Shown: piece by piece, positions 42,219-58,580 of the stretch | How positions within the stretch are numbered: position 1 is the stretch's first letter | Layout: the number at the start of each line of letters is the position of its first letter | Origin: Serratia marcescens subsp. marcescens ATCC 13880 | GTDB taxonomy: Bacteria; Pseudomonadota; Gammaproteobacteria; Enterobacterales; Enterobacteriaceae | NCBI RefSeq assembly: GCF_017299535.1 | Contig: NZ_CP071238.1 | Location: 3,410,001 to 3,474,000, forward strand | Direction of reading: 5' to 3' | Length of the DNA stretch: 64,000 nt | Translations under genes and position numbers: made by a program | The notes under the pieces: model-generated | What the model was told of the DNA's origin: nothing | What the model saw: only the letters and a program-made list of their open reading frames with translations | Database searches by the model: none

Positions 42219-43721
42219 TTATGAAACCGCGTTGGTTTCCGATGACACGTCATCGTTTGATACCAGCGCGTCCGGCGGCAACACTTCCACCTCTTCACGC
42301 GCCGGCATGGCGAGGCGCAGATCGATCCAGCGCCCTTCAGGAATATCCATCGCTTCGCCGGCCACGACCGTCGCGGTATCGATGTCAAAACGGCGTTTGC
42401 TGATTTTCACCGTAATAACGCCGTCGCTGTCGGTGGCGGTTTCTACAAAGCACAGGCGGTTGCCGTTCACGTCCTGCGGTACTTCGATGGTCCAGCCCTC
42501 CTTTGCCAACCCCAACGAACCACTCAACTGATAAACGCCGGTGGAGATTCGCTCTGCGCTCACCCCTGTCGCCTCACCGTTAACGGCGACACAGCCGGCC
42601 AGCGCAAAGCAGCCGTCCAGATAGTCAGCCTGCATATGCTCGGGCGCCGCGGACAATCTCGCGATCGGCGAGGCTTTCTTGATAAAACCGTTGCCGTCAA
42701 CCGTGGTGTTGGCTTCCGACCACATCCAAACCCAGGGGGTAAACGCGGTGCCATTCCAGCTGCGCACGGCAATTTTTCCCGTCTGCGTAGCACTCACGCC
42801 ATAGCCGTAACAGGTTTGCACCGTTCGATAGCTGTCGTCGGTTCCCGCCTGCGTCACCGCCCATGAGCGCGTATCGAGGAAATATGTGCCAACGTCTTTG
42901 AAGGGGTTGCCAATGGGATCCGTGCTCACATAACCACGCCGGCTTTGCATTTGCGCATTGAAGTTTCCTTTGGAAGCTGCTGACACGCCTTTCGTTAATC
43001 CCCAATATTTCAAGTCTGAAATGTCGGCCACCCCTGGGAGATCTGTCGTGCTGAATAATCGAGACCAAGAAATGGTTGAAGCGGCTGCGGGGGTTGAACT
43101 ACCGACCCAAGCTTTCCGTTCAACCGATGTTGCAAAATACGCACTCGACGGCCCACCATCAACGGGTAAAACCATTACGCCGCCTGCCGCGCCGCCAGGC
43201 CTGTTGGCTGTAGCAGTGGTATAGCGGCGAAGGCTTGACTTATTATCTGTAGAAAAAATATCAGCCGTATGAACTGGGCCAGATGCAAAACCTGCGGCGA
43301 TAACGACTTTGCTATTTTCGGCTGCATTCTGCTCGCTGACTTTTGCCGCTGCTGCTGATGCTGCTGATTTGTCAGCGGACAAAGCAGCCTCTGCACGCAG
43401 TCGATCGACAGTTTGCACAATCTCCGGCGTGATATTGCTTTCCCCTGGCCGACGCAGGAAATCATTGAGCGTGCCGGGCAGCGAATCGTTATAAACCTCA
43501 ATAGCCCCCACCCGCTCCGGTTGCGCGCCATACACCGAAATGATGACCTCGTAAGCGCCCGGCTCCACGGGTAGGGAATATTTACCGCTATCATCCGTCA
43601 CTGATTGTGATTTAGCCAAGCTCAGAACCGTTGACGAGGTTCTGACTGCGCGCAGGGTAATGGTTACGCCGGAGCGAGGATCGCCGTAAGGGCCTTTTAA
43701 TACGCCGCTGATTAATGTCAT
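42219..43721 (-). CDS. Tail fibre protein (lambda Stf-type N-terminus)
   Basis: A 500-residue fibre. Residues 1-75 form the prophage tail-fibre N-terminal domain with a carboxypeptidase-like fold (SGVLKGPYGDPRSGVTITLRAV), which docks to the tail. A short alanine-rich coiled coil follows (about 108-140), then a receptor-binding region with aromatic-rich repeats (SRRGYVSTDPIGNPFKDVGT) and a C-terminal domain of about 100 residues. It overlaps the S74 gene by four bases. No separate fibre assembly gene (tfa) is visible. Confidence 0.8.
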   Translation of the reverse strand: MTLISGVLKGPYGDPRSGVTITLRAVRTSSTVLSLAKSQSVTDDSGKYSLPVEPGAYEVIISVYGAQPERVGAIEVYNDSLPGTLNDFLRRPGESNITPEIVQTVDRLRAEAALSADKSAASAAAAKVSEQNAAENSKVVIAAGFASGPVHTADIFSTDNKSSLRRYTTATANRPGGAAGGVMVLPVDGGPSSAYFATSVERKAWVGSSTPAAASTISWSRLFSTTDLPGVADISDLKYWGLTKGVSAASKGNFNAQMQSRRGYVSTDPIGNPFKDVGTYFLDTRSWAVTQAGTDDSYRTVQTCYGYGVSATQTGKIAVRSWNGTAFTPWVWMWSEANTTVDGNGFIKKASPIARLSAAPEHMQADYLDGCFALAGCVAVNGEATGVSAERISTGVYQLSGSLGLAKEGWTIEVPQDVNGNRLCFVETATDSDGVITVKISKRRFDIDTATVVAGEAMDIPEGRWIDLRLAMPAREEVEVLPPDALVSNDDVSSETNAVS

Positions 43722-44875
43722 TGTACTTTCTCCATAAGTTCTTTGATTAATTCATCCTGGCGATCGATTCTATCCAGAGCCTGATTCAATGCGGCCAGGG
43801 CCACATATCCCAGCGTTGAATAATCGACGGATTTTACTTTTTCGATATTTCTACCATCTTTTAATGTGATAGATCCGCCATCACTAATTAATAACGGCAT
43901 CGTCTTTTCAATTTCCTGAGCAATTCCACCTATCTGTGGCTTGCCATCACGATTGAAAGAATAAAGCTTCAAGCCTCGAACAAGGGAAATAGGATCATTA
44001 ATAACTTCAATGTCAGTTTTGATTCGACGATCGGACCCGGTCACCCAACTTCCTGTCATGTTATTAATGTTCCCGCTAGCCAACCAGCGAGCCTCATGCC
44101 AATTCCCGGCATAGTCCTGATATGAAATATACCCATAGTCTTCAATGCCAATCTCGCGACGTAACGCCATGACCATCGCGGTTTTCAAACCGTTTTGCTT
44201 CAGCGTTGATAGAAAAGTCCCTCCTGTGACTTGCCCAGCCATGGCAGTCGATGTGCGATGACAGATGACTGAGGGGGATTCATTATTTCCCCCATCAGCA
44301 ATGAGTCCTTTAGGAGAAAAAATTGTATCATCAAATGTCGTTGACTTACGGAAGCGTGAATATCCCCCCACGTCAAGGTTTGCCGTTTGCCCTGTCACCA
44401 AAGAACCCTGTAAAGACAGTGAACCTTTAATTTCCTGGGCAGCGCTAATCGTCTTGTCTAACTTATTATTGAGTGAAGCTGAAATATTATTCCAAGCCTG
44501 GCCGCTATAGATGCTGCCATCCGGCAACTTAACGGTAATATTTCCGGTATTGCTGAAGACCTGCTGCCAGTTCTCTTTATCGAGGTTCAGCCCACGCAGG
44601 GCTTTGGCCGTCTCAGCGGCCAGTTGGGCGGTGATAGCATTCATCGCATCGCGCGGTACGGCATACCATGCCGCGCCCGACTGTGTTGGGCCGTCATAGG
44701 CTTTAATCAAAGTCGCCTGAGTGGCGCTATCAACGGTTTTCACCGGTAGCGTATAGGTAACGCCGCCGACCACGCTCACGATGAGATCACCGGCTTTCAG
44801 CTCGGTATTAAAGGCCGTTCCGGTACCTTTTACTATTGTGGAATTATTTGTTAGGGTGAGAGTGCCTGCTGGCAT
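43718..44875 (-). CDS. Tail fibre/spike with C-terminal S74 chaperone
   Basis: A 385-residue protein. The N-terminus (TLTLTNNSTIVKGTGTAF) is a tail-attachment domain found in siphophage fibres. Residues about 280-385 form the intramolecular chaperone of peptidase family S74: GSDRRIKTDIE carries the cleaving Ser281 and Lys286, and a coiled coil ends the protein. The chaperone is expected to trimerise the fibre and then cut itself off. Base composition is markedly AT-richer than the tail operon upstream, a sign of recent exchange. Confidence 0.83.
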   Translation of the reverse strand: MPAGTLTLTNNSTIVKGTGTAFNTELKAGDLIVSVVGGVTYTLPVKTVDSATQATLIKAYDGPTQSGAAWYAVPRDAMNAITAQLAAETAKALRGLNLDKENWQQVFSNTGNITVKLPDGSIYSGQAWNNISASLNNKLDKTISAAQEIKGSLSLQGSLVTGQTANLDVGGYSRFRKSTTFDDTIFSPKGLIADGGNNESPSVICHRTSTAMAGQVTGGTFLSTLKQNGLKTAMVMALRREIGIEDYGYISYQDYAGNWHEARWLASGNINNMTGSWVTGSDRRIKTDIEVINDPISLVRGLKLYSFNRDGKPQIGGIAQEIEKTMPLLISDGGSITLKDGRNIEKVKSVDYSTLGYVALAALNQALDRIDRQDELIKELMEKVQ

Positions 44876-44925
44876 AAATATCCTCCTGAATTAGCCTGAT
44901 AAAAACCTCGTTACGGAGATGATGG

Positions 44926-47900
44926 TTACTCCAGCCCAAAGGCTGTATATTGCGGAGTGGCAAAGATGTTCACAATAAAAGTCGTTGAGTGCGATTGTCC
45001 TTGGTCAAGCTCTCCTGAGGCAAGCTGCCAAAAGGCAGTCGAAGACTTTCCAATTAATGTATCGATATAAACGATGGATACTGAAGGTTGCCCGCTACCA
45101 GAACTGGAACTAACGGAAACCTCTGGCATATAGCCTCCGCCGGTTGTGTTTTGCCTAACCCCGCCATAACCGTGAGGATAGCCTCGTCCACTTCTTTTAA
45201 TTTGAATCTGTCCAAAGACACGAACGGGAATAACATTATTACCACCAAAGCGTAATAACCGACTCGCATTAGTATTATGACCCGTCCAGCTTAACATCGA
45301 GCCATCCATGATCGCGCCCTCGATATTAGCAGCGGAAAGTTTTCCCTCAATGGAGCAACTCTCAAGGATCCGGCAATTGCCAATCACGCCATTTTTAAAC
45401 TCACCAGTGTCGGCATATATCGCTCCACGGGCGCTAATGTTATTGAATTGTGCCCCGCCATCTTTATTTATCGCCCAGCCACGCTGCCCACTTACCCAAT
45501 TAGAAGACTGGATATGCTGTGCGATCTTTGCGCTATCGATGGTGCCATTGCGAATAAACGCATCGCTAATAAACACCTGCCCATCCACCACGGCAAACGG
45601 CGAATACTGATTACTGTTGTTGCCGCTCATCAGCACGAACTGGTTGGCGTTAAAGCCGACGCGGGTGGTGACCGGCCTGCCGTTTTCCGCCAATACCGCG
45701 ATCGACATGCCGGCGTTATAGAAGGTGCCGTTCACCCGCACGCCCGCTTTCAGCGTATGGATGGCCGTGGCGCCGTCGGCGTCTACCGTCGCCGTCAGTT
45801 TGTCTTCAAGCACCGCCGCGACGTCGTCAATCTGCGCCTGCACCTGGGTTTTCATCTCGGCCAGCCCGCGATCGACCTCCGCGATGGTGGTTTTCACCAC
45901 CATGATATCGGCGCGCACCGTGCCATACTGCGCCCACTGGTGATCCACCGTCGCATTGTTGGCCAGCGCATTCTGCAAGATGGCGTCGATGTTGGTGTCG
46001 ATATCGCCCACCAGCCGATCGCCATCTTTCGCGGTGAGGAGATCGTCGCCGATGTTCTCGAGATAATCGCCGGCGTCCGCGTTCGCCTGCCCGGCGGTCC
46101 AGCCTGTCCAGTCGCCCTGATTGCCGGTGCGGTCTTGCAGCCGCGCGCGGAACCAAAACTCTTGCCCCGCCTTCAACCCGGTCATGGCGTGGGTGTGCAG
46201 CGGGTACGGGATATCGGCCAGCAGCATCGCATTATTCCCGGCCGCGTTGTCCGCATACTGAATTTCGGTTTTCAGCGTATCTTCAGCGCCGCCAGGGAAC
46301 GCCCAGTCGAGCTGGATGCCCCACAGCAAAGGCGATGTCTTGAAGCCGACCGGCATCGGTGGCTTGCCCTCTTTGCCCTTGAGGTAAGTTTCCATCGACG
46401 TCGCCCAGATAGACGATACGTCACTGGCGTTGATGGCCCGCACCCGCACCCGATAACGACCGGCGTAAATCCCCGGCACTTCAAAGCCGAGCGCCGAGGT
46501 GCGCGGCACCGACACCCAGTTGCCGTTATCTTTGCGCCATTCCGCCTCATAGGCGATGGCATTTTCAACCGCGCCCCAGGCGGCGCGCAGGGTGGTAATG
46601 GCGATGCCCTGGCTCACCGAGGAGTAGCTGTCGATGGTGATGTTTTTCGGCGGCGCCTGCACGCCGGGCGGAATGATGGAGATCGGACGATCGTCGATAC
46701 GCGCGCCGGTATCGATACGGGCGTACTTGTTCGGATCGTGTTCCGCCGCGTTGACGGTATAGGTGTTGTCGCCGTTATCGGCGATACCCACCACGCGGTA
46801 AAGCTGCACCGCCAGATCGTCCGCGTCGATGGACCAGGCCGCTTCCGGCGCCGGCGTCTCGCTGTAGGCCGTGGTGACGGTCACTACGCGATCATTCACC
46901 GCCTGCACGGTGCGCGCCTGCGCTTTACCTGAAGGCAGGTTAACGATAAGACGATCGCCGGCTTTGGCGCCCGGCTTCCTGTCCAGCGTCAGTTTACGTC
47001 CGGCCACGCCGCTGAGGCGCCCGCCAATCACTCGTCCGGCCAGCATCTGGTCCGCCACGCCGACGATATGCCCCGGCATGGGGATCATGCCGTCCAGCCC
47101 CACGGAGAAGCTGACCGTACGATCCTTGCTGTTGGTCAATAGCGCCCAGCGGCCGCGGCGGTTCGCTTCGCTCGGCGTGGTGCAGCCGATGGCCGTCAGT
47201 TCGGTCTGGTTCACGTCGTAGCGGCGCACCAGATCGCTGTCGAATACCGCCTCTATCGCATCAGCGTAATGGTTGCCCGGATCGGACCAGCTGACCATCG
47301 CGGTGCTGTAGCGGGTGCGTTCGCTGGCGGACGAGTAGGTAAACTTGCCGTCGATCACGTTGGCGCGGGTGTAGGTGAAGTCCATATCGCGCGGCATGTC
47401 CGCCAGGGCGACCATTTGGTTTTGCCCCCAATAGGTCATGCCGCGGAAGATGCCGGCCAAATCGCTCAGCACCGTCCAGGCCTCTTCCCGCGACTGCAAA
47501 TAAACGTTGCAGGTGAAGCGCGGCTCCATGCCCTCGCCGCCGCGCCCGTCCGGCACCAGCTGATCGCAATACTGCGCGATGCGGTACAGTTCGGACTCGG
47601 AGACCTGGGAGGCGTCGATGCGATCGCCCAGGCCAAAGCGCTCGGCCAAAATAATGTCGTAAAACACCCACGCCGGGTTATCGCTGTAGGCCCACTTAAA
47701 GCCGCCGCTCCAGATGCCGGTATAGCTGCGCGTTTGCGGATCGTAATTGTCCGGCACGCGGATCAGGCGGCCGCGCGGTTTGCAGCTGATCTTCGGGATG
47801 TTGGGGAACTGCTTCGAGTCGAACTCCACGTAAAGCAGCGCAGTGTTGGGATAGCGCAGCTTGGCGTCGATGATTTCGGTCAGCGCCTCGATGTTCATCC

Positions 47901-48513
47901 GGTCGGCGATCCGGGCGCTGTTGGCGTTAGGCGTCAACCGGCGCACGCGCAGTTGCCATCCCGTGGTGGCCTTCGGCAAATTGATGCGGTGCGAGCGTTC
48001 ATACAGCGAGGTGGTTTTATCGTCAATCGCCGCCGTTAACACCTCCTGGTAACTGCCGCCGTCGGTCGCCACGTCGATGGCGTACTCGATGCGATAGCCG
48101 TTGACGTCACCGTTGTCCGCCTGCTTTTGCAGCATGGGCCACCCCAGGCGCAGTCGAACAGCGGAAAGTTGCAGGTTAGAGACGGAGCGCACCCACGGCG
48201 CACCGCTTTTCAGTTCGCTGCCGACCGAGATCTCATTTTCAACGGCGGGAATGCCCTGGATATATTCCTGCGCCTGCGAACCAGGGCGGAACTCCCAGCG
48301 GAAACCGGGAAAGTTTTCCGTGCCGTCGCTGCTCAGCACCGGCGTACCGTCAACAAAAATGTTTGTGCCATCCAGCCCGCCGGCAAATTCTCCTTCGCCT
48401 AATGCGAACAGCATCTTCGCTCTGGCGATCGACTGAATGCTGTCCGGCGATTCTACCGGCGTGTGGCCGCCACCGCCGCCGCCTTTTCGCCCACGGATCA
48501 TGTTCTGTGCCAT
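44926..48513 (-). CDS. Tail tip attachment protein J (host specificity)
   Basis: A 1195-residue central tip protein similar to lambda J (1132 residues). The N-terminal two thirds are GC-rich and conserved: GGGGGGHTPVESPDSIQS, the hub domains, and fibronectin type III repeats (about 690-870). The last 250 residues, which in lambda bind the receptor, are AT-rich and look exchanged. It is followed after 50 bases by the S74 fibre gene. Together with the fibres it should set the target range. Confidence 0.9.
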   Translation of the reverse strand: MAQNMIRGRKGGGGGGHTPVESPDSIQSIARAKMLFALGEGEFAGGLDGTNIFVDGTPVLSSDGTENFPGFRWEFRPGSQAQEYIQGIPAVENEISVGSELKSGAPWVRSVSNLQLSAVRLRLGWPMLQKQADNGDVNGYRIEYAIDVATDGGSYQEVLTAAIDDKTTSLYERSHRINLPKATTGWQLRVRRLTPNANSARIADRMNIEALTEIIDAKLRYPNTALLYVEFDSKQFPNIPKISCKPRGRLIRVPDNYDPQTRSYTGIWSGGFKWAYSDNPAWVFYDIILAERFGLGDRIDASQVSESELYRIAQYCDQLVPDGRGGEGMEPRFTCNVYLQSREEAWTVLSDLAGIFRGMTYWGQNQMVALADMPRDMDFTYTRANVIDGKFTYSSASERTRYSTAMVSWSDPGNHYADAIEAVFDSDLVRRYDVNQTELTAIGCTTPSEANRRGRWALLTNSKDRTVSFSVGLDGMIPMPGHIVGVADQMLAGRVIGGRLSGVAGRKLTLDRKPGAKAGDRLIVNLPSGKAQARTVQAVNDRVVTVTTAYSETPAPEAAWSIDADDLAVQLYRVVGIADNGDNTYTVNAAEHDPNKYARIDTGARIDDRPISIIPPGVQAPPKNITIDSYSSVSQGIAITTLRAAWGAVENAIAYEAEWRKDNGNWVSVPRTSALGFEVPGIYAGRYRVRVRAINASDVSSIWATSMETYLKGKEGKPPMPVGFKTSPLLWGIQLDWAFPGGAEDTLKTEIQYADNAAGNNAMLLADIPYPLHTHAMTGLKAGQEFWFRARLQDRTGNQGDWTGWTAGQANADAGDYLENIGDDLLTAKDGDRLVGDIDTNIDAILQNALANNATVDHQWAQYGTVRADIMVVKTTIAEVDRGLAEMKTQVQAQIDDVAAVLEDKLTATVDADGATAIHTLKAGVRVNGTFYNAGMSIAVLAENGRPVTTRVGFNANQFVLMSGNNSNQYSPFAVVDGQVFISDAFIRNGTIDSAKIAQHIQSSNWVSGQRGWAINKDGGAQFNNISARGAIYADTGEFKNGVIGNCRILESCSIEGKLSAANIEGAIMDGSMLSWTGHNTNASRLLRFGGNNVIPVRVFGQIQIKRSGRGYPHGYGGVRQNTTGGGYMPEVSVSSSSGSGQPSVSIVYIDTLIGKSSTAFWQLASGELDQGQSHSTTFIVNIFATPQYTAFGLE

Positions 48514-48566
48514 ATTTCGCCCATAAAAAAAGCCGCTATTGCGGCTGTCTGTTCAAATGGATGTCG

Positions 48567-49184
48567 TTATTGCTGGTCTTCGGTATAAATACCTGCGGAG
48601 ATAATCGCCCCGCCAATTTCACGCGTGCCGTACAGCACGCCGACGGGGTTGCCCTGCGCCGTGGTGTTGACCGGCCCGCCAAAGGCATAGCTCGGTTTAT
48701 TTTCCGGGCCTTGCCGCATGCGCAGCCCGCCCATTTGCGGGGAGAGCATTTGGAGGATGCCGCCGAGGGCCATTGCGGCACCAGTTAATGCAACCCCACC
48801 TGTCAACCCACCAGCACTAAATACTCCCATGCCTACTGGTCCACCAATAAGCATTGCAGCTCCAATTAATGCTACCCCAAGAATAGTTTGAAATAGCCCA
48901 GCACGCTTGCTCCCAATAATAACGGGTACAAGATGAATATCGTCTGTTCCTTTGGTTAGCTCAAGCTCAGACTGCCCTATATTTCGCTTTCCGACAAAGA
49001 TGGCGAAGGTTAATCCTCTTTTATGAGCCTCAAGCATATACCGTTCAAATCCATCTAATAGATTTTTCATAGCATCAATTGCTTTTGGTACATTGTGAGC
49101 GCGATAGTCAAATTTAGGCCCAAAGATTTTAACCATAGGGCCGTGAAACCTTACAGTTCTTAGTGGTGCTTCAGAGAAGGACAT
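48567..49184 (-). CDS. Tail assembly protein I
   Basis: A 205-residue protein like lambda gpI: an N-terminal ubiquitin-like region, a glycine/alanine-rich hydrophobic middle (LGVALIGAAMLIGGPVG) and a C-terminal part NPVGVLYGTREIGGAIISAGI. It acts in tail tip assembly with K and J. The N-terminal half is AT-rich, the end GC-rich, so a recombination joint probably lies near 48790. Confidence 0.85.
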   Translation of the reverse strand: MSFSEAPLRTVRFHGPMVKIFGPKFDYRAHNVPKAIDAMKNLLDGFERYMLEAHKRGLTFAIFVGKRNIGQSELELTKGTDDIHLVPVIIGSKRAGLFQTILGVALIGAAMLIGGPVGMGVFSAGGLTGGVALTGAAMALGGILQMLSPQMGGLRMRQGPENKPSYAFGGPVNTTAQGNPVGVLYGTREIGGAIISAGIYTEDQQ

Positions 49185-49193
49185 ACAGAGACC

Positions 49194-49221: not shown

Positions 49222-49224
49222 ATG

Positions 49225-49563
49225 TTAAAGACAGTGTTTTATTTTATTCAGCCTATTATTTATGCGATGGCTCATCATCATCCCTTGATATCTATATTCG
49301 ATTTTTGACTCCCCATTCACATTGAAAACATCCGTAATCTCAATATTAGACGGGGATAATATTGTGTATCCATTACTATATGGCTGAATATAAACATCAC
49401 CGTATCTAAAGCTACTCTCTTGATATCCAAATAAAATGCATTCAGAAATAGATTTAGCATCCTTTTTTGAGACAAATGATTCTGCCGGAGGTGAGCTGCG
49501 CATTTCACTCATTGAAGAGCACCCAGACACAAGGATTGCCGTGATTAATAAAACCTTTTTCAT
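49225..49563 (-). CDS. Small lipoprotein inserted in the tail operon (moron)
   Basis: A 112-residue protein with a lipobox (ILVSGC, cysteine 15) after a short signal sequence. No conserved domain is recognised; the mature part is rich in serine and tyrosine and has two further cysteines. It splits genes K and I, which are adjacent in lambda. It is AT-rich, has its own extended -10 promoter upstream and its own terminator, and so could be expressed when the operon is silent. Phage lipoproteins at such places often block superinfection or protect the host; here that is inference. Confidence 0.7.
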   Translation of the reverse strand: MKKVLLITAILVSGCSSMSEMRSSPPAESFVSKKDAKSISECILFGYQESSFRYGDVYIQPYSNGYTILSPSNIEITDVFNVNGESKIEYRYQGMMMSHRINNRLNKIKHCL

Positions 49564-49600: not shown

Positions 49601-50305
49601 TCACATCAGGGCTTTGTGGCGCAACACCTTCACCGTTCGCTCCTTCCAATAACCGCCGTAAGGCACCCGCTGGCTGAGCATGCCGTACATATGGTGCAGC
49701 AACAGGCCATCTGCCAGCAGAATGCCGGCGTGGTTGGCCACCGGCGCCGAAACCTGCATGATCGCCATGTCGCCTGGGTGCGGCGGGCCATCGAACTCGC
49801 GAAAGCCGCAGGCATGCCAGTTTTCCAGATAGCGGTTTTCACCCCGCTCCCACCACGGGTAATCAACGCGGTAATCCTGGAGCGTTATGCCGTGCTCCTG
49901 GCGGAAATAGCTCATGACCAGCCCCCAACAGTCGGTATGCCCCAACACGAACTGGCGACCCACCAGCGGCAGTTCGCCGCGCGGCAAAATGGTGCGCAAA
50001 TCCCCCTCCGGCCAGCTGGCTATCGCCCAGGGCAACTCCATCGCGTCGCACTGCGCCTTGTCCAGCTCACTCGGCTGCGTGGTGGCGTCCGGGTGGCTGT
50101 GCACAATGAGGGTGATGGTGCCCCATTCGGCGGCGGCCACGTAGTCTTCCGGCGCCAGATGAAACTGCTCGGTGGGGTTGTCCGCCAGGTTGCGACACGG
50201 GAAATAGCGCTCCACGCGGGATTTTTGCGCCACCACGCCGCAGCATTCGCGCGGGTACTCGGCCTTGGCGTGCGCCATAATGGCCGCCGCGGTTTTTTCT
50301 TTCAT
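49601..50305 (-). CDS. Tail tip peptidase K (JAMM plus NlpC/P60)
   Basis: A 234-residue protein like lambda gpK with two peptidase domains. The N-terminal Mov34/JAMM domain has the zinc motif VHSHPDATTQPSELD; the C-terminal NlpC/P60 domain has the catalytic cysteine in GHTDCWGLV and histidine in NHAGIL. It probably cuts peptidoglycan locally or matures the tail tip. Nine bases separate it from gene L. Confidence 0.88.
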   Translation of the reverse strand: MKEKTAAAIMAHAKAEYPRECCGVVAQKSRVERYFPCRNLADNPTEQFHLAPEDYVAAAEWGTITLIVHSHPDATTQPSELDKAQCDAMELPWAIASWPEGDLRTILPRGELPLVGRQFVLGHTDCWGLVMSYFRQEHGITLQDYRVDYPWWERGENRYLENWHACGFREFDGPPHPGDMAIMQVSAPVANHAGILLADGLLLHHMYGMLSQRVPYGGYWKERTVKVLRHKALM

Positions 50306-51064: not shown

Positions 51065-51076
51065 CATCTCCCCCGG

Positions 51077-51415
51077 TTAAACGTGAAAGGCCTCGGTAAA
51101 CGTGGCCGTCAATGAATAGTTATCCCCGCCCATGGCGACCGGCTTATAGCCCTCGCAGCGGTAAAGGCCGGGAACCTGCGTCGGTGGCGTCCATTGAAAG
51201 GACTTCACCCCGTGATGGTTTTCCAGAAAGACGATGATCGGCGTGATGTAGTCATACTTGCCGACAAAGGTCAGATCCCAGGAGCGCACGATCGGGTTAA
51301 TGCCGTCGCCGGAGACCTGCGCATAGCCGTCGCCGAACTGCGCCTTTCTGACGCGAAAGCGCGTATCGCCGGCGGCGTTGACGCGCGCCGGAAATTCAAA
51401 TGTCTGAATGCCCAT
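51077..51415 (-). CDS. Minor tail protein M
   Basis: A 112-residue tip protein like lambda gpM (FEFPARVNAAGDTRFRVRKAQFGDGYAQ, typical of the family). Its ATG overlaps the stop of the tape measure gene as TAATG, and AAGGGG lies upstream. The frame is open eight codons further, inside gene H. Confidence 0.87.
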   Translation of the reverse strand: MGIQTFEFPARVNAAGDTRFRVRKAQFGDGYAQVSGDGINPIVRSWDLTFVGKYDYITPIIVFLENHHGVKSFQWTPPTQVPGLYRCEGYKPVAMGGDNYSLTATFTEAFHV

Positions 51416-53706
51416 TACATCCCCTTGATTGCTTTCCAAATCGGCTGGCCCGGCATCAGGTTACGGTTGATCACCTTCTGGCTTTCCTGCGCGGCGATAT
51501 TGCCCATCCGTTTACCGAACTCGCCCCATCCCGGATCGGCCTGCGAACTGACGTTGCCGCCGTTCTCGATGGTGATGTAGACAGTCGGCGCCGCCGAAGG
51601 CTGCGGGCCGCCGCCGATCGCCCGCACGCCGAGCGAACCGTCCGCGCCGCGTTTGAGCGGCATGATGGCCTCCGGCCCGGCTTCGCCCATCAAGCCGGCG
51701 CCTCTGGCGAACGCGAACAACGTGGGATTGCTGACGATCTGGCCGCTGAATGCGCTCAGCGAAGGCGAGGCGTATACGCCGCCCTTGGCGTTGGGGACAT
51801 AGCCTTGCCAACCGGTCGGCATGCCCATCGCGCCTGAACCGGCCGCGCCCGCGCCGGCGCTTGCCGCCCCGCCCAGCAAACCGCCGCCGATGTTCATAAA
51901 GGTAGAGAGAAAGGTTCTGGTTAACAGCGCCTGCATCGCCAGATCGATCAGTTGCTGAATGATGGACTGCGTCATGGAGGTCATCAAACCGAGCATGCTT
52001 TGCTTAAAGTTTTGCGTCCCGGTCAGCAGATCGAACATCATGCCGGAGGTCCGTTCCCGCGTCATGTCCACCAGCCCCAGCGCCATCTTGTGCACGCGGC
52101 TCTGCCCGCCGAACAGACTCAGCGCCTGCTGATACTGAGCGTCCGACGATTCTTGCGTCGACGCCTGCATCAGCTGTTCATAGCGCTGTTTATCCAGCAA
52201 GCCTTGCTGGTAGTAGGCCTGGTATTGCGCCTGCTGCTGCACCAATTGGTTGTTAAGCCGAGCGACAGGGTCCACATCACCGGCAATGTTCATACCCGGC
52301 GCGGCGAGCGCGTCGGTTTCGGCCTTCAGCCGCTGGCGCGTCATTTCTTGCTGCTGCATCCGGCTGGCGGTGTGGTACTCGCGCTCGGTCAACAGCCGCC
52401 CGTCATACAACGCCTTCAGCGCCTTGCCGACCTCTTGCTCTTTACGCACCGCCGCCTGCCCTGGCGCGTATTGTTCAGCGAGCTGTTGCCGCTGCCGCTG
52501 GTACTTCTCGGCGTTCAGCGCCATCGCACGCTGCACATCGGCCTGCCCGGCACCGGCCGCCTTGGCCGCTGACGCCAGCTTGGCCTGTGCGCTTTGTTCA
52601 TCCTGGGTGATTTTGTCGAGGCTGCTCAGATGCGCCTGCTCGATTTCCTGACGCAGCTGTTGGTACTGATCAAGAGCCTGCTGCTTACCGTTATCGTTTA
52701 AAATACGACCGACAGGAGGAGCGCTAGTTTGATGGCTCTTAGGCTTAACAGGTTTGGTCTCAACATGGCTATCATTGCCATTCTGTGCATTAACGGCATT
52801 GCTTCGCCTAAGCCGGATCGCTTTCTCGCCCTTAATGACATCTTCCAACTGCGCTTGCAAGGCGTTGCGTTCTTTCTTCACCTCTTTGGGATCAGAATAG
52901 AGGAATCCCAACAACCCTTTGCTTCGCCGCTCTAAGCCAGCAATTCGGATATCGCTCCTGCGCGCCAGTTGGTTTTCGATCTTGGCTTTTTCCTCACTGA
53001 GCGTCTTTAGCTGATCGTCGAAGGTATCAATTTTGACGGCGAGCTTTGCCTTGGAGAGCTTGCTGAGATCTTCGGCCGTCTCGACCGCCGCATCTTTCAA
53101 TGCCAAAGCCGATTGACGGGCCAATTGGTTTTGCTCATGGAAGTACAGCATCGCCAATCCCGCCTGGATGGCGACACCGATCGGGCCGCCAAGCACACCC
53201 AGCGCGACGTTGGCGACGCGAGACGCCGCGCCGACGCCCGATGTCGCCTGAGCCGCCCCGCGCGCCGCCGCCGCCTGATCGCGCCAGGCCGCCGCGCTGT
53301 CATTCAGGCCACCGGCCAGTTTCAGCATCTCCTCCGCCCGGCTGCCACCTTCGCCGGAAGCGCTGCTCGCCTGGCGGGCCGCGTCGTCCAACTGTTTCAT
53401 CTGCGCCGTCGCGGCGACGGTGATGGACGCGAGTTCGGTGAGCGCCTGTCCATACTGGCGCGAGGTGGCGGCGAGGCCCTGCAGCGACAATTCAACGCCG
53501 GCCAGCCCCGCCAGTTTCCCCGCCAGGCCGCCAAGCGTGCCACCGATGCGTTGATACGACTCGTCGGTCTTCTTCGCGTCCTGCTGAGCCTGGCGGTTAA
53601 ATTTGGCGGATTGTTCCCCGGCGGTACGGTAAGCCGCCGTCAGTTTGTTTTTAAAGTTGGTGTCATTCAGTTGCAACCCGACGACCAACTGTGCGGTATC
53701 AGCCAT
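51415..53706 (-). CDS. Tail tape measure protein H
   Basis: A 763-residue tape measure from the ATG at 53706 (MADTAQLVVGLQLND), where it overlaps the end of the T frame. It is largely helical and coiled coil, with a hydrophobic stretch near residues 170-195 and glycine-rich segments near the C-terminus. Tape length sets tail length; by the lambda ratio (853 residues, about 135 nm) a tail of roughly 115-120 nm is expected, which is inference. The region 52700-52940 is AT-richer than the rest. Confidence 0.88.
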   Translation of the reverse strand: MADTAQLVVGLQLNDTNFKNKLTAAYRTAGEQSAKFNRQAQQDAKKTDESYQRIGGTLGGLAGKLAGLAGVELSLQGLAATSRQYGQALTELASITVAATAQMKQLDDAARQASSASGEGGSRAEEMLKLAGGLNDSAAAWRDQAAAARGAAQATSGVGAASRVANVALGVLGGPIGVAIQAGLAMLYFHEQNQLARQSALALKDAAVETAEDLSKLSKAKLAVKIDTFDDQLKTLSEEKAKIENQLARRSDIRIAGLERRSKGLLGFLYSDPKEVKKERNALQAQLEDVIKGEKAIRLRRSNAVNAQNGNDSHVETKPVKPKSHQTSAPPVGRILNDNGKQQALDQYQQLRQEIEQAHLSSLDKITQDEQSAQAKLASAAKAAGAGQADVQRAMALNAEKYQRQRQQLAEQYAPGQAAVRKEQEVGKALKALYDGRLLTEREYHTASRMQQQEMTRQRLKAETDALAAPGMNIAGDVDPVARLNNQLVQQQAQYQAYYQQGLLDKQRYEQLMQASTQESSDAQYQQALSLFGGQSRVHKMALGLVDMTRERTSGMMFDLLTGTQNFKQSMLGLMTSMTQSIIQQLIDLAMQALLTRTFLSTFMNIGGGLLGGAASAGAGAAGSGAMGMPTGWQGYVPNAKGGVYASPSLSAFSGQIVSNPTLFAFARGAGLMGEAGPEAIMPLKRGADGSLGVRAIGGGPQPSAAPTVYITIENGGNVSSQADPGWGEFGKRMGNIAAQESQKVINRNLMPGQPIWKAIKGM

Positions 53707-54303
53707 TTCCCAGCACTCGCATAACGTCAGCACACTGCATATCAATACTGCTTTGCGCGGGCTGACCGGATTGATGAACGGGGGCACTTTCCGCCGCATC
53801 GGCCGTCATGCCTTGCAGTTTGAAATATGCCCGCCAGTGATTCAGGATGTGCGCCGGCATCGCGGCGATCTTGCGAGGATCCGACTCACCCCAGCGATCG
53901 GCCAGTTGGAACACCAACATCAGCCAGGGCGAGTCAGTCAGTTTTTTTCCGCTTCCTCCAGGCTGCCGACCGCATGCCGCTTGACGGCGCCGATGGCTTC
54001 GACCAGCGTCGGGTTGTCGTGCGCCGCCAGCAGATCGTCTACGCTCGGCAAGGCGCCGGCCGGGATGCGTTTGCCGTCCGGCGTCATCAGGCAAGACAGC
54101 AGAAGCTGCACGTTGAGCTGCGCGGCTTTGTTCATGTCACCGCTGTCGATGGCGGCCTTCATGCCGTCTTCGTTTTCCTGCAGTTCCGCGGCTTTCAGGC
54201 GACGGATAAAGGCTTTGGCGCCAAAGATCTGCGTTTCAATCACGTGATCGTCGGATTTCAGCAGCGCCGCTTTCAGCGCTTTCAGATCGTATTTCTCACT
54301 CAT
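53699..54303 (-). CDS. Tail assembly chaperone GT, -1 frameshift product
   Basis: Ribosomes that slip back one base at the heptamer AAAAAAC (plus-strand 53941-53947), at the last codons of G, continue as LTDSPWLMLVFQLADRWGES and end at 53699. The T part of about 80 residues has the typical W-x-Y-F pattern (NHWRAYFKLQ). In lambda the G:GT ratio is needed for tail assembly. Listed as the fusion product; G itself is listed separately. Confidence 0.82.
53938..54303 (-). CDS. Tail assembly chaperone G
   Basis: A 121-residue acidic chaperone (SEKYDLKALKAALLKSDD...) of the tail assembly chaperone family, which coats the tape measure during tail growth. The start at 54303 is preferred to an ATG six codons upstream by the family pattern. 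Its last codons GAA AAA AAC TGA carry the slippery site for the GT product. Confidence 0.83.
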   Translation of the reverse strand: MSEKYDLKALKAALLKSDDHVIETQIFGAKAFIRRLKAAELQENEDGMKAAIDSGDMNKAAQLNVQLLLSCLMTPDGKRIPAGALPSVDDLLAAHDNPTLVEAIGAVKRHAVGSLEEAEKN

Positions 54304-54419
54304 CGGTTTTTCCTTGTTCAATTCGGTTTACTCTGTAATAAGCAGGTTGCCGCAGGCCACATGGCCCGCGGCGGAAGCGTTCGCCTTCAGGCGTTAACCC
54401 GCGGCGAACCGCCAATGGG

Positions 54420-54875
54420 TCACACTTTCGGGGTGACCGAGCCCCAGGTGTTACTGTTTTGCTTGCCCTGGACGGTAATCTGAATGACTTCGCTCGCCGG
54501 GGCGGTGATCTCATTCATTTTCCAGCCGGACAGCGACAGGATGGAGGTGGAGGTGCGGCCATTTGGCAGCTCGACGTAGAACTGCACCGTTTCGCGCTTG
54601 TCCGCCGCATTCAGCAGCGCCGCGAAATCGGCGTTGGACGGATCGTCGATGAAACCGATGGACTTCTCCGCGCCTTCCGGCAGGTCGGAAATAAACTGCT
54701 TGGCGGTATCCAGCAGCGTGGTGCAATCGACAAAACCGCCGGTTTGCCCCATTTCACCTACCGCTTTACAGTTGGTCAGCGCCTTCATGGCCGTCGGCGC
54801 AGCCCCAACGGTGCCCCATTTGACGATAGTGCCGGCAGGCAGCATGGCGTATTCTGGCGAGGTTTTATCAGCCAT
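54420..54875 (-). CDS. Major tail tube protein V
   Basis: A 151-residue tube subunit like the N-terminal domain of lambda gpV, without the extra C-terminal Ig-like domain. The pattern CTTLLDTAKQFISDLPEGAEKSIGFIDDPSN and VQFYVELPNGRTSTS fits the family. Confidence 0.88.
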   Translation of the reverse strand: MADKTSPEYAMLPAGTIVKWGTVGAAPTAMKALTNCKAVGEMGQTGGFVDCTTLLDTAKQFISDLPEGAEKSIGFIDDPSNADFAALLNAADKRETVQFYVELPNGRTSTSILSLSGWKMNEITAPASEVIQITVQGKQNSNTWGSVTPKV

Positions 54876-54916
54876 AGTTTTTCTCTCTCTTTTTTGATGA
54901 AGGATGGTAGCGGTCG

Positions 54917-55309
54917 CTACCGGTTTTCGATGCCATAGCGGACCTTAGCCGCCAGGATGCGTAACACTTGGTGCTTATGGTGATCCAGCGCAGGGCGAAT
55001 AAACGGGGCGGCGGCTTGCGTTGCCGTGCCGTACTCCTGCGCCAGAGCTCTGTGGTAATGCTGTTTACTGGGGCCGACACGCAACGTCACCGCGTTCCAT
55101 CCGGTAACGGCCGGGCGTATCGCGATGCCGGCGCTCAGCGAGGGTTCGCTGTTTGACGCCCCCCGCTCGGCACACTGCCGCATCGTGCTAAGTAGCGGCG
55201 CCAGCGCGGCGTGGCCGGCCTCCGGCAGAATGTGACTGGCGACCTCGCGCCGAATCGCTTCCAAGCGGCGAGTCAATTCCGCCATGCCGGAAACGTTTAT
55301 GGCGATCAC
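54917..55309 (-). CDS. HK97 gp10-like / minor tail protein Z-like
   Basis: A 130-residue protein of the HK97 gp10 family, with the usual start (AELTRRLEAIRREV) and the motif QEYGTATQAAAPFIRPALD. In phages it belongs to the head-tail or tail completion zone. It overlaps the upstream gene by four bases (ATGA). Confidence 0.82.
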   Translation of the reverse strand: MIAINVSGMAELTRRLEAIRREVASHILPEAGHAALAPLLSTMRQCAERGASNSEPSLSAGIAIRPAVTGWNAVTLRVGPSKQHYHRALAQEYGTATQAAAPFIRPALDHHKHQVLRILAAKVRYGIENR

Positions 55310-55695
55310 GCCGCCACCTCGGAATGGGTAATGAGGTAATCACGCGCCATCCGATACTGAACGCGGTTATCCGCCAAGGGCGTGGCGCTCTGCAAAAGGG
55401 TGCTGCGCGTAACCGCCTGTACCGGCCATTCGCCGATATGGCCATGCCGCCCCCCCTCCCAGGCGTTCAAAACCGCCTTATCCAGAGCGATCAGCCGGGA
55501 GTAATCGTCGATCACGTACAGCACGATCTGAAAACGGCTCTGCACCAGCGAACTGTCAACCAGACCGGTGTTCACTTTCAGATCGCTGATCTTCTGATAG
55601 GTCACGCCTTCTTGCTGAGGATCCGGCAAGATCAGCGGATGAACCGCCAGATGGGTTAGCGCGGCCAGCGAGCGTTGGATTTCATCTTCAATCAT
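55306..55695 (-). CDS. Tail completion / terminator protein (DUF3168-like)
   Basis: A 129-residue protein resembling the DUF3168 tail terminator family (MIEDEIQRSLAALTHLAVHPLILPDPQQE... V-x-Y-x-K-I-S). Such rings cap the tail tube, which a headless tail would still need. An upstream ATG at 55752 overlaps the endolysin stop as TGATG and would add 19 residues; the binding site is weak for both. Confidence 0.68.
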   Translation of the reverse strand: MIEDEIQRSLAALTHLAVHPLILPDPQQEGVTYQKISDLKVNTGLVDSSLVQSRFQIVLYVIDDYSRLIALDKAVLNAWEGGRHGHIGEWPVQAVTRSTLLQSATPLADNRVQYRMARDYLITHSEVAA

Positions 55696-55751
55696 TTGGG
55701 CAAGGTCTCCGTCGTTTTGAGGGGGAATCGTTTTACAGACGCATTCAGGCA

Positions 55752-56192
55752 TCAGGTAAGGAACAGCGCGCGTTCCGCCGCACGCCGGGCAACCAGCCCA
55801 TCGAGCCGCACACCGCCCGCATTCACCCATCGGCCGAACTGGTCGGCCGCCCCCTGCCGATCGCCGGCGTTCAGCCGGCGCAGCAGCGTCGAGTTCTCCA
55901 GCGCGCGCAGGCCCAGGTTATAGGCGAAGCTCACCAGCGCATCGAACTGCCCCTGCGTGATCGTCACCGCCACCAGCCGTTCGACGCCCCGTTCGAATTG
56001 GGCGACACCGCACACCAGCAAACGCTCGGCCGTTGCGACATCGATCGCCATGCCGGCCCCAACTTTTCGTCCCGCTACCGGTTGAGTCCACCCGTAGCCG
56101 ATGGTCCAAACGCCGACCGAGTCCTGATAAGCCTGCAAACGCAGGCCTTCGAAACGCTTAATCAGCGCCATGCCATCGTCACTTATCTTCAT
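55752..56192 (-). CDS. Endolysin (GH24 lysozyme)
   Basis: A 146-residue T4-type lysozyme. The catalytic Glu15, Asp24 and Thr30 show the Glu-x8-Asp-x5-Thr spacing of the family (RFEGLRLQAYQDSVGVWTIGYG). There is no signal or anchor sequence, so release needs the holin. It overlaps the holin gene by four bases (ATGA). Confidence 0.92.
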   Translation of the reverse strand: MKISDDGMALIKRFEGLRLQAYQDSVGVWTIGYGWTQPVAGRKVGAGMAIDVATAERLLVCGVAQFERGVERLVAVTITQGQFDALVSFAYNLGLRALENSTLLRRLNAGDRQGAADQFGRWVNAGGVRLDGLVARRAAERALFLT

Positions 56193-56494
56193 TGGTTTCC
56201 TCCTGACGCTTTATTGAGAAATCGGCGTTCCAATGCCTTGATCAGCGATGCTCCCGACCACCCCGCCATGCCGCATACGCCGCCCATCACCTCCGAAGGC
56301 CAGTCGTAATGCAGCGCAATCATCACCATGGTCAAGCCGGCGAAAATAGAGACAAACAGCTGCAAAAACAGCGTCCTCCAGCTAAAGGTTTCGCCGTTCA
56401 AAACCTTGAAGGAATAGCTGGCGATCGCCCCCAGCAGCGTCATGCCGAAAGCAAGCAGCATTGAAAGGATGTTTGGTTCATTTTTCCAAGGCAT
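56189..56494 (-). CDS. Holin
   Basis: A protein of about 101 residues with three predicted membrane helices (about 11-30, 40-62, 70-88) and a basic C-terminus (ALERRFLNKASGGNQ), located directly before the endolysin. The reading frame begins MMIMPWK after AGGGGAGG; the third ATG (56494) has the best spacing, and the earlier ones could make a slightly longer form. Confidence 0.82.
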   Translation of the reverse strand: MPWKNEPNILSMLLAFGMTLLGAIASYSFKVLNGETFSWRTLFLQLFVSIFAGLTMVMIALHYDWPSEVMGGVCGMAGWSGASLIKALERRFLNKASGGNQ

Positions 56495-56603
56495 AATCAT
56501 CATCCTCCCCTTACCGGGGCATAGCCCGATCGTCGGGAGTCATGGAAAAGAGCGGCTAAATGCGGCGCCCCTCTCCGTCATTCCTGTTCCATTTAAATAA
56601 GCG

Positions 56604-56653
56604 GCCATTTACACTGTCGAAAATGGCTTATCCGTTCTGCTCAACCTGAGCAG
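56604..56653. repeat. Two inverted repeats in the late leader
   Basis: GCCATTT-N10-AAATGGC (56604-56627) and CTGCTCA-ACC-TGAGCAG (56637-56653). Neither has a T-tract. They lie in the untranslated leader between the repeat array and the holin gene. Confidence 0.4.
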
Positions 56654-56766
56654 ATAAATAAGGATTACGCCGTTTTATAAAGGAGAAGGATTAGCCTCCC
56701 GCCGTGATCATTCAACGACAGTCATTATTCAGTGAGTGATTGACCGTTTTGACAAGGAGGCTAAAA

Positions 56767-56862
56767 ATGAAAAAACCCGCCGGAGCGAGGTTTGGCTATC
56801 GTGCGGCAGCGCCGGTAACGACTCAGTTTTATCAGATTACGCGTTTATTTGCGTACGCGTGA
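56767..56862 (+). CDS. 31-residue ORF with a perfect Shine-Dalgarno site, opposite the late leader
   Basis: AAGGAGG at 56754-56760 stands six bases before an ATG that opens a 31-codon frame running through most of repeat copy 1 (it starts MKKPAGARFGYRAAAPVTTQ and ends FYQITRLFAYA). The same residues can be read in copies 2-4 in one frame or another, but without the start signal. It runs against the lysis operon. I cannot assign a family with certainty. Confidence 0.4.
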   Translation: MKKPAGARFGYRAAAPVTTQFYQITRLFAYA

Positions 56863-57207
56863 GTCTTTTATTATAAAAAAACAAAACCCCGCCGGAGCGA
56901 GGTTTGGCTATCGTGCGGCAGCGCCGGCAACGACTCAGTTTTATCAGATTACGCGTTTATTTGCGTACGCGTGAGTCTTTTATTATAAAAAAACAAAACC
57001 CCGCCGGAGCGAGGTTTGGCTATCGTGCGGCGGCGCCGGCAACGACTCAGTTTTATCAGATTACGCGTTTATTTGCGTACGCGTGAGTCTTTTATTATAA
57101 AAAAAACAAAACCCCGCCGGAGCGAGGTTTGGCTATCGTGCGGCGGCGCCGGCAACGACTCAGTTTTATCAGATTACTCGCTTATTTGCGTACGCGTGAG
57201 TCTTTTT
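56776..57207. repeat. Four tandem 112-113 bp repeats between Q and the lysis genes
   Basis: Units begin at 56776, 56888, 57000 and 57113 and differ at only a few positions. On the minus strand each unit holds nested inverted repeats (GACTCA...TGAGTC around CGCGT...ACGCG), a CGGCGCCG palindrome, and an imperfect stem AAACCTCGC/GCGGGGTTT followed by a T-rich tract, that is a leftward terminator. TATAAT follows each tract. Confidence 0.85.
56884..56905 (-). terminator. Repeat-unit terminator (copy 2; equivalents in copies 1, 3 and 4)
   Basis: Nine-pair stem with one mismatch and loop TCCG, then TGTTTTTTT on the minus strand. Equivalent hairpins lie near 56772-56793, 56996-57017 and 57109-57130. 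Confidence 0.65.
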
Positions 57208-57298
57208 TTAAATTCTTGCAACGCGCATACGCTATTATTATTCCTGATGTCACAGTGAAACGAGAAATAAACCCTCATCAACTTCAACGGCAGCAGTT

Positions 57299-57661
57299 TC
57301 AGCGATCCATAGTCAACTTTATATCCAACATCGCCAGGCACCCACCGATAAATCCCTCCGCCGTTTGCATCTCTTTACGTATCGTACCGTCTGAACACTT
57401 TCTTTTCAGGGCAATCTTGCGCAAGGATATGCCATAAACATGGTGGGCAATAATGAGATCGAACTCTTCGGGTTTGTATTTCTTCAATCTGCCCACACAA
57501 CCGTCGATCACCAGGCCATCATCATCGCAACAGGAACGCTCGCCTTTCGATTTATAGGACAACAGCCCTCTGAACCCGGCAGCAATGGGGGAATAATCGA
57601 TGCCGCTATTATCCCTGGCCCATACGCCCCACCGCTCCAACACTTCATTCATATCTCTCAT
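57299..57661 (-). CDS. Late-gene antiterminator Q (phage 21 / PF06530 type)
   Basis: A 120-residue antiterminator. From the ATG at 57661, with GGAGG eight bases upstream, it reads MRDMNEVLERWGVWARDNSG and keeps the family hallmarks DYSPIAAGF, CCDDDGLVIDGCV, LKKYKPEEFDLI and the helix-turn-helix-like KRKCSDGTIRKEMQTAEGFI. Q proteins of this type load on RNA polymerase paused near the late promoter and let it pass terminators. Downstream are the repeat array and the lysis and tail genes. Confidence 0.85.
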   Translation of the reverse strand: MRDMNEVLERWGVWARDNSGIDYSPIAAGFRGLLSYKSKGERSCCDDDGLVIDGCVGRLKKYKPEEFDLIIAHHVYGISLRKIALKRKCSDGTIRKEMQTAEGFIGGCLAMLDIKLTMDR

Positions 57662-57804
57662 GCTTCCACCTCCTTTGGGCGTTTGCCACATCGCCAAGGC
57701 TCCATGTCGTTGACCGGCGTCGGTCGAGCCGCTCTTCTGCTCGGCGTGCGCCAACACGCAACAACCTCTCCGCCCGGCGTGCTCGCCGAGGGTATTACAT
57801 CAAA

Positions 57805-57824
57805 TACTGTATAAATAACCAGTA
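57805..57824. promoter_or_regulatory. LexA box in front of Q
   Basis: TACTGTATAAATAACCAGTA matches the LexA consensus TACTGTATATATATACAGTA at 17 of 20 positions. It lies just downstream of the Q promoter -10 box, where LexA binding would block initiation. Confidence 0.75.
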
Positions 57825-57827
57825 TCA

Positions 57828-57855
57828 AGTATACCCAGAGGTATCTTTTTTTCAA
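57828..57855 (-). promoter_or_regulatory. Promoter of Q
   Basis: On the minus strand TTGAAA (57855-57850) and TATACT (57833-57828) with 16-base spacing, each five of six to consensus. Confidence 0.65.
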
Positions 57856-57883
57856 TAGCGAAAATCCATTTACCTGCAGGTAA
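57831..57883. promoter_or_regulatory. Two candidate repressor operators
   Basis: ATACCCAGAGGTAT (57831-57844) and TTACCTGCAGGTAA (57870-57883) share the form TACC-N4-GGTA, with centres 39 bases apart. The first overlaps the Q promoter -10 and spacer; the second lies upstream of its -35, next to the repressor gene, and extends to an 18-base perfect palindrome (57868-57885). Confidence 0.6.
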
Positions 57884-57902
57884 ATTTAGGTACGATGGCC
57901 TT

Positions 57903-58580
57903 ATGAAAAACGAGCAAAAAATGCACCTGCAGGAGATGCGGCGAGAGCGCCTGATCATCCTCATTGACAACCTCGGCGTCGGGGGCCAAAAGCGCCTTGC
58001 CGAGGCGCTCGACATTGCCGCAGACTATGTCTCTCGCCTGCTCTACCCGCCGGGCAAGAAAGGAAAAAAGGGCATCAGTGGCGATATGGCGCGAAGGATA
58101 GAACAGTATTTCGCCGTGCAAATCGGTTGGCTGGACGGCCTGGAGCAAACCGGGCAACGCCCCGTCAGGCAGAAGACTTCGCAGGCCTTGGGTAAAACGC
58201 TGCCGCTGCTGACGTGGACATTGCCGTTGTCTCATGAACAGCTGCGCAAAGGAACGACCGTCCATTACCCGGCGATGGTGCAATGCAGCGCTCATGCCTA
58301 CTGGTTGCCGGTGCGGGATAACACGATGAACGGCTCTGCCGGCGCCAATTACCCAAAAGGCGCCTTGATACTTGTCGAACCCGTTACTGCCGGCATAACC
58401 GAGCTCGCGTCCGGCGATAAGGTGATAGCGAAACGCTGTGACAGCGCGGAGCTCATCTTTAGAAGGTATGTCGAGGAAGCCGGGCATCGATGGCTTAAGG
58501 GAAGCATGCCGGGTTGCCCGGCGCAGAATGCTGATGAGTACGCGATTATCGGGGTGGTGCTTGGCGCCTGGCTGCCCTAG
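57903..58580 (+). CDS. CI-like repressor with degenerate S24 domain
   Basis: A 225-residue repressor. Residues about 28-50 form the helix-turn-helix (KRLAEALDIAADYVSRLL). The C-terminal LexA/CI fold is recognisable (PKGALILVEP, SGDKVIAKR, YAIIGVVLGAW), but Thr141 stands for the catalytic serine, Arg187 for the catalytic lysine, and the hinge reads LTWTLPLSH where an Ala-Gly cleavage site is expected. It should dimerise and repress but not cleave itself. It faces away from Q across the operator region. Confidence 0.82.
   Translation: MKNEQKMHLQEMRRERLIILIDNLGVGGQKRLAEALDIAADYVSRLLYPPGKKGKKGISGDMARRIEQYFAVQIGWLDGLEQTGQRPVRQKTSQALGKTLPLLTWTLPLSHEQLRKGTTVHYPAMVQCSAHAYWLPVRDNTMNGSAGANYPKGALILVEPVTAGITELASGDKVIAKRCDSAELIFRRYVEEAGHRWLKGSMPGCPAQNADEYAIIGVVLGAWLP

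Follow-up and report, generated by a model that had tools for sequence, protein, structure and literature searches.

The window analysed here is the whole stretch of 64,000 nucleotides from Serratia marcescens subsp. marcescens ATCC 13880, from a genome of 5.16 Mb in two contigs. Positions 42219 to 58580 contain a complete flexible tail gene set of the lambda/phiKO2 type, together with a holin, a lysozyme, a Q antiterminator and a repressor, as named by PHROGs and Pfam. The locus is very likely an F-type (flexible, non-contractile) tailocin, predicted from its genes, which on present evidence arose once from a phiKO2-like siphophage, would be wired to LexA and has amplified an element associated with Q. 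Its product is probably a headless tail that serves to kill competing bacteria once DNA has been damaged. An initial annotation had proposed a tailocin, and this reading is supported by the same chromosomal site in related genomes, a conserved core, variable fibres and the lack of head gene matches.

Gene content and organization

By PHROGs and Pfam, the tail part is ordered fibres, J, I, K, L, M, tape measure, frameshifted chaperone pair and tube, and the remainder tail completion protein, terminator, lysozyme, holin, Q and repressor. The order from terminator to J matches gp10 to gp21 of phiKO2, with a lipoprotein gene in the window in place of the phiKO2 moron gp19. The tube is 74 % identical to that of phiKO2 and 77 % to those of other Klebsiella phages, and J is 67 % identical to that of Cronobacter phage ENT39118. 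The tail, lysis and Q genes are as follows.

42219..43721, minus strand, tail fibre 2 with a variable C-terminus (PF08400 phage_tail_N, PF25670 Phage_tail_C_2)
43718..44875, minus strand, tail fibre 1 with a Peptidase_S74 chaperone domain (phrog_1980, PF13884)
44926..48513, minus strand, J, central tip protein (phrog_31/2589)
48567..49184, minus strand, I, tail tip assembly protein (phrog_32)
49601..50305, minus strand, K, JAB and NlpC/P60 tip peptidase (phrog_30, PF14464, PF00877)
50315..51067, minus strand, L, minor tail protein (phrog_18, PF05100)
51077..51439, minus strand, M, minor tail protein (phrog_14, PF05939)
51415..53706, minus strand, tape measure (phrog_339)
53699..54094, minus strand, chaperone T frame, probably reached by a -1 frameshift (phrog_25875 matches across both frames)
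53938..54321, minus strand, tail assembly chaperone G (PF16462), with a slippery AAAAAAC shortly ahead of the stop
54420..54875, minus strand, tail tube (PF16463)
54917..55309, minus strand, tail completion/neck protein of the HK97 gp10 family (phrog_5, TIGR01725)
55306..55695, minus strand, tail terminator, 129 amino acids, start by comparison (phrog_347)
55752..56192, minus strand, lysozyme (PF00959)
56189..56503, minus strand, holin (phrog_6384, PF16083)
57299..57661, minus strand, Q antiterminator, 120 amino acids (PF06530, E 2e-49)

Three of these starts are predictions. The tape measure would begin at Met32 of its open reading frame, giving 763 amino acids. The terminator is placed at Met46 of a long open reading frame because the frames of four of six relatives have 129 to 132 amino acids, and Q at Met33 of its frame because the Pfam domain begins there. 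The initial annotation had listed a complete gene set for a long flexible tail, in this order, and a holin, an endolysin and a Q/repressor switch, all of which the PHROGs and Pfam matches bear out; the lipoprotein, a 112-bp repeat, a LexA-type box and the absence of an Rz/spanin gene had gone unmentioned.

Absence of head and packaging genes

Head genes were sought by tblastn (E 1e-5) with phiKO2 gp1, gp2 and gp4 to gp9, which include the small and large terminase, portal, protease, capsid and gp7-9, and with seven proteins from the head/packaging region of the prophage in Serratia genome G006. Neither the window nor any of five relatives gave a match. Two prophages served as controls, and there all seven prophage queries scored, as did phiKO2 gp2 (large terminase), gp4 (portal) and gp9; the phiKO2 capsid and protease queries failed to score even there. 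The absence of terminase, portal, capsid and protease genes reported by the initial annotation agrees with these results, and the head genes in close relatives that could have contradicted it were not matched at the same locus in the five. Its further claim, that integrase, excisionase and replication genes are missing, held in family scans of the listed frames, with no dedicated searches made. A functional lambdoid prophage was rejected on the unmatched head and packaging genes (tblastn) and on the lack of integration genes in the same family scans, again with no dedicated search. In 26 tailocin loci no more than 172 bp separate the lysozyme match from the terminator match, too little for head genes or an ordinary spanin gene to lie between them.

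Distribution and phylogeny

Among 30 Serratia species genomes, that of the window included, the tailocin tape measure (identity of at least 83 %, frame of 796 to 810 codons) is present in six, and some tape-measure match in 13. In all six, dinI lies on one side of the locus and the repressor, tRNAs and bamE on the other; in genome G009 a dinI fragment and an acyltransferase region are inserted between repressor and tRNA. The comparison across Serratia suggested by the initial annotation thus gave in 6/30 genomes a locus beside dinI, without head matches, with a conserved core and variable fibres. The site marked by bamE was found in 26 of the 30 genomes, and at the 20 tailocin-free sites (stretches of 1.8 to 4.6 kb) no tail genes were found except a 28-residue fibre match in G006. 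In 198 genomes of the family, strong tape-measure matches beyond the window's own were frames of about 1100 codons, broken frames or partial frames.

The best 80 of 140 tube loci from IMG/VR were added to the six genome loci. A locus was classed as tailocin-like where a lysozyme match above 70 % preceded the tube and head genes gave no match, which split the 86 loci into 26 tailocin-like, 54 with head genes and six unresolved. The 20 IMG/VR contigs in the first class are not independent evidence of head absence because they were classed partly by missing head matches, and some may stem from strains whose genomes are already in the set. A phylogeny built on terminator, completion protein, tube and chaperone covered 81 of 87 loci (73 distinct rows including phiKO2, drawn with a midpoint root). 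The 24 distinct tailocin rows lie on one side of a branch with support 100/100, adjoining head-bearing phages.

Searched at near identity against phage DNA, the whole locus matched tRNA genes alone, over about 1 % of the query or less (best 20 of 45 matches). No flexible tailocin of Serratia was found described in the open-licence PMC literature, outside which most older marcescin and serracin work lies; that work may include a particle seen earlier without sequence.

Tail length, selection and variation

Complete tape measures have 718 to 778 amino acids in 23/23 tailocins versus 980 to 1125 in 39 of 41 phages, the two exceptions (L388 and L418) being split frames. In an alignment, the six genomic tailocin tape measures lack two internal blocks, of about 265 and 77 residues, that are present in phiKO2 and two Serratia prophages. 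Tail length amounts to about 0.15 nm per tape-measure residue, so 763 amino acids would give a tail of some 115 nm.

The ratio of nonsynonymous to synonymous substitution rates (dN/dS) between the window and five relatives is 0 to 0.42 in all usable comparisons, which supports the earlier view that the tail itself is under selection. Saturated values were left out, as was the Q comparison of G000 with G024 (0.76), because of a stop ahead of the predicted Q start, although from Met33 that Q is intact; the Q genes of G004 and G002 were taken from tblastn matches (81 % and 88 %). The chaperone heptamer AAAAAAC, which the initial annotation had described as preserved, is kept in 6/6 genomes examined. 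Frameshifts in the tail genes of sister strains would have counted against that annotation; frames are open in six species, and one metagenome contig (L318) is broken.

Tube identity among the six tailocins is 91 to 100 %, fibre 1 identity 38 to 95 % and fibre 2 identity 18 to 95 %, two of the fibre 2 sequences being cut by the end of the fetched stretch. The tube is 88 to 91 % identical to those of two Serratia prophages; for tape measure, terminator and neck protein the range is 46 to 71 %. In G002 (L027) the M-L-K-I-J proteins are 79 to 88 % identical to those of the head-bearing G006 prophage versus 50 to 73 % to those of other tailocins. A tip of the G006-prophage type thus sits on a tailocin backbone, and whole tip modules therefore seem to move between phage and tailocin.

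Regulatory region

The switch region is covered in 21 of the 26 tailocin loci; the other five begin after Q. Its features in the window are these.

57805..57824, unstranded, LexA-type box TACTGTATAAATAACCAGTA near the predicted Q start site, pattern from the tailocins themselves
57828..57855, minus strand, predicted Q promoter (-35 TTGAAA, 16-bp spacer, -10 TATACT), from a consensus scan alone
57832..57843, unstranded, candidate operator O1, TACCN4GGTA, within the predicted Q promoter, kept in 21/21 tailocins
57871..57882, unstranded, candidate operator O2, upstream of the repressor gene, in 12/21 tailocins by the strict pattern
57903..58580, plus strand, repressor of the S24 family, catalytic Ser replaced by Thr (PF00717; alignment)

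The LexA-type box lies directly downstream of the -10 of the predicted Q promoter. With the tailocin-derived pattern, TACTGTATAAATAACCAGTA was the only site in the window at up to three mismatches, and none occurred in 100 shuffles. Within the 320 bp before Q, the tailocin 20-mer is found with 0 to 2 mismatches in 21/21 tailocins versus 7 to 10 in 73/73 phages, the phage Q loci that were long enough (11 further were too short). The promoter scan returned two promoter-like sites in the region, where chance alone would give two. The window has two matches to TACCN4GGTA, each at the switch, against 0.12 expected for a pattern drawn from these same sites.

The catalytic residues of the repressor were assigned from LexA and lambda CI. 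The Ser is Thr in 21/21 tailocins, and the Lys position is Arg in 17 of them. Among eight aligned relatives, drawn from 12 weaker Serratia matches, Ser is present in seven and Ala in one. An Ala-Gly pair at the usual place was found in 0/6 aligned tailocin repressors versus 6/8 relatives. The replacement of Ser by Thr suggests that the tailocin repressor probably does not cleave itself, and the DNA-damage signal therefore probably enters via LexA.

Repeated element downstream of Q

56776..57200, minus strand, four tandem units of about 112 bp, each with a late-promoter-like element and a terminator-like hairpin

The four units contain GCGTACGC at 56851, 56963, 57075 and 57188, and on the coding strand the repeat pattern is ACGCGTACGCAAA-N8-TARTCTG. 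Among the 30 Serratia genomes this pattern was found only in the six tailocins (2 to 6 exact copies) and once in the G006 prophage; a reversed control pattern had no match. The GCGTACGC core is present in three to six units per locus in 21/21 tailocins, 82 in total, of which 67 have the expected hairpin by a loose pattern.

A scan of IMG/VR gave at least 120 loci with the pattern, and among those listed 110 are single-copy and ten have two to five copies. A Q homologue is on 94 of the 120 listed. Of the listed single-copy loci, 85 have Q, and in every one of these the element follows Q on its own strand (median 1601 bp downstream); in phages conservation extends some 30 bp beyond the pattern. 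Two of the 110 listed single-copy loci are tailocins, L314 (one exact and three core copies) and L203 (cut by the contig end). All ten multi-copy loci among the matches listed carry tailocin genes; L267 is short, with repressor, Q and holin alone, and L318 is the broken copy.

The Q protein of phage 21 recognises a direct repeat within the late promoter and renders polymerase terminator-resistant (PMC6606751). ACGC-GT-ACGC in the present element is also a direct repeat, like the phage 21 Q site, and the element is taken by analogy as a candidate Q-dependent late promoter. Nothing like an amplified phage late promoter was found in the open-licence PMC literature. We know of no phage that has one.

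Lipoprotein gene between K and I

49225..49563, minus strand, small lipoprotein, variable allele, a possible superinfection-exclusion or self-protection moron (phrog_914; lipobox)

The lipobox Cys15, Cys42 and Cys111 are invariant across 11 aligned lipoproteins, and by a strict pattern the gap between K and I has a lipobox open reading frame in 13/23 loci. Five proteins from this gap belong to three families (phrog_914, 13007 and 890), one of them having a signal peptide without a lipobox. Related alleles also occur in loci with head genes. A profile search against solved structures gave weak matches alone, the best at E 0.034, and four of the five fell on the end with the signal peptide. The protein may possibly block a receptor; that it protects the producer is a guess. 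Tailocins are not known to carry self-protection genes.

One idea joins this gene to the repeats, and we hold it only tentatively, as rather unlikely: the array of Q elements and terminators would keep lysis tighter before, and make it stronger after, loss of LexA, with three to six copies tuning the sacrifice, and the lipoprotein would give self-protection. If true, the array would be a new control part, a late promoter and terminator amplified together after domestication.

Chromosomal site and integration history

41822..42064, plus strand, dinI-type gene bordering the element (Pfam DinI), occurring at tailocin-free sites too

The stretch from tRNA-Pro(ggg) to tRNA-Ser/Thr in S. marcescens is a plasticity zone in which dinI is always present and prophages occur in some genomes (PMC9440931); the section of that paper on this zone names no tailocin, and the term acyltransferase region follows the same source. 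All three zone tRNAs are in the window. Positions 29144-58825 span the whole zone from tRNA-Pro to tRNA-Ser/Thr, including genes for NrfD, a 4Fe-4S protein and a response regulator beside dinI.

In S. marcescens MSU97 (G009, L025) a 65-bp copy of the dinI 3' end follows the repressor (95.4 % identical, E 7e-26) and continues into the acyltransferase region of the tailocin-free genomes G013, G011 and G022. A prophage that had once integrated at dinI would be expected to leave such a duplication. The two ends of the window's own element share no direct repeat longer than 8 bp. Homology to tailocin-free genomes begins near the tRNA-Thr 3' end, at 58653/58655 in most of 20 loci and earlier in two. 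The tRNA-Thr 3' end was considered as the integration site and rejected, MSU97 having the dinI duplication instead; on this evidence the old attachment site more likely lay in dinI, and the border at the tRNA would be the edge of a later deletion.

Whether dinI belongs to the tailocin is touched by two observations. It is present at 10/20 tailocin-free sites fetched. In G002 its synonymous divergence (dS 0.44) is like that of tape measure, tube and holin (0.41 to 0.52) and unlike that of the flanking bamE, tetR and DUF1348 genes (0.83 to 1.7); J (1.26) and the repressor (0.93) diverge from the dinI value.

Proposed mechanism and alternative explanations

On present evidence a single loss of the head/packaging block from a phiKO2-like siphophage would have left the lysozyme and tail terminator genes next to each other. 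The Q promoter would be occupied by host LexA together with a repressor of phage type, and DNA damage would probably be sensed through LexA, the repressor having no catalytic Ser. Q would then load RNA polymerase at the three to six tandem late-promoter-like elements, and the loaded polymerase would read through the hairpins and transcribe the genes for holin and lysozyme as well as the tail operon. The cell would produce headless tails of roughly 115 nm and lyse, and the tails would attach to related bacteria via the variable fibres and J, killing probably by opening the inner membrane.

Several observations weigh against this account. The contrast in LexA sites between tailocins and phages depends on the pattern chosen: CTGN10CAG is found in 21/21 tailocins and also in 30/73 phages, CTGTN8ACAG in just 18/21 tailocins and 0/73 phages, and the window's box, CTGTN8CCAG, is one base from the latter. 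Loss of LexA alone may not suffice for induction, since a candidate operator lies within the Q promoter. Lys is retained in 4/21 tailocin repressors, and Thr at the Ser position might keep some activity. An attempt to assign -10 and -35 boxes in the repeated element was without success. No Rz/spanin gene was recognised near holin and lysozyme (55306-56503), so that release may be incomplete; such an absence is unusual for release from a Gram-negative cell. The locus is absent from 20 of 26 genomes with the site, and in L318 the stretch from mid-lysozyme to mid-tape measure is deleted while switch and fibres are kept.

The last two points also suit a decaying prophage remnant, a tail operon left over from a deletion and with no function of its own, as does the dinI duplication at both MSU97 ends, which suggests an old integration. 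This explanation is nevertheless improbable, since dN/dS is 0 to 0.42, frames are open and the frameshift heptamer is intact across six species, the loci form one clade with shared derived changes, and the LexA-type box, O1 and the repeats are kept in 21/21 loci covering them. It seems still less probable that the locus is a tail donor or satellite-like element, whose tails join the heads of co-resident phages or which is kept as a reservoir for recombination of phage tips. The tip exchange seen in G002 would fit this, but tape measure, terminator and neck protein, unlike the tube, stand far from the two Serratia prophages (46 to 71 %), and the locus has its own lysis genes and its own switch. 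Equally remote is a tail particle with some other use, such as lysis that sets free DNA or vesicles, killing being secondary; a holin and lysozyme of its own adjoining an SOS-type box are in its favour, but selection on tip and tube and the diversification of the fibres would be left unexplained. The tailocin reading keeps by far the greatest weight.

Comparison with known systems

F-type pyocins of Pseudomonas are controlled by PrtR/PrtN. No PrtN-type protein is among the genes named by the family scans, no dedicated PrtN or P-box search having been made. The locus has in common with F-type pyocins, and with the F-pyocin-like prophage 01 of P. fluorescens Pf-5, a tail, holin, lysozyme, repressor and fixed site, and the lack of integrase and head genes (PMC2647930). 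In gene content it differs from F-pyocins by its PF06530 Q, tandem elements, LexA-type box and phiKO2-lineage tail. With phiKO2 and related Serratia-type siphophages it shares the order from terminator to J and a similar tube (74 % to phiKO2, 88 to 91 % to the two Serratia prophages); unlike them it has no head block, a shorter tape measure, an amplified late element and a gained LexA-type box.

Listeria monocins are headless flexible tails of Gram-positive origin that serve as bacteriocins; the Serratia locus is like them in its predicted particle and different in origin. Joint control by LexA and a non-cleaved repressor has a parallel in the filamentous CTX prophage, where host LexA acts directly beside the non-cleaved phage repressor RstR; CTX has no Q and no lysis genes, both of which the present locus has. 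Next to these systems the locus looks like a separate case, within Enterobacterales, of a flexible phage tail having been domesticated, and comparison with its phage relatives lets each stage of the change from phage to weapon be followed: loss of the head, a shortened tape measure, rewiring to LexA, a repressor that is probably non-cleavable and an amplified candidate late promoter.

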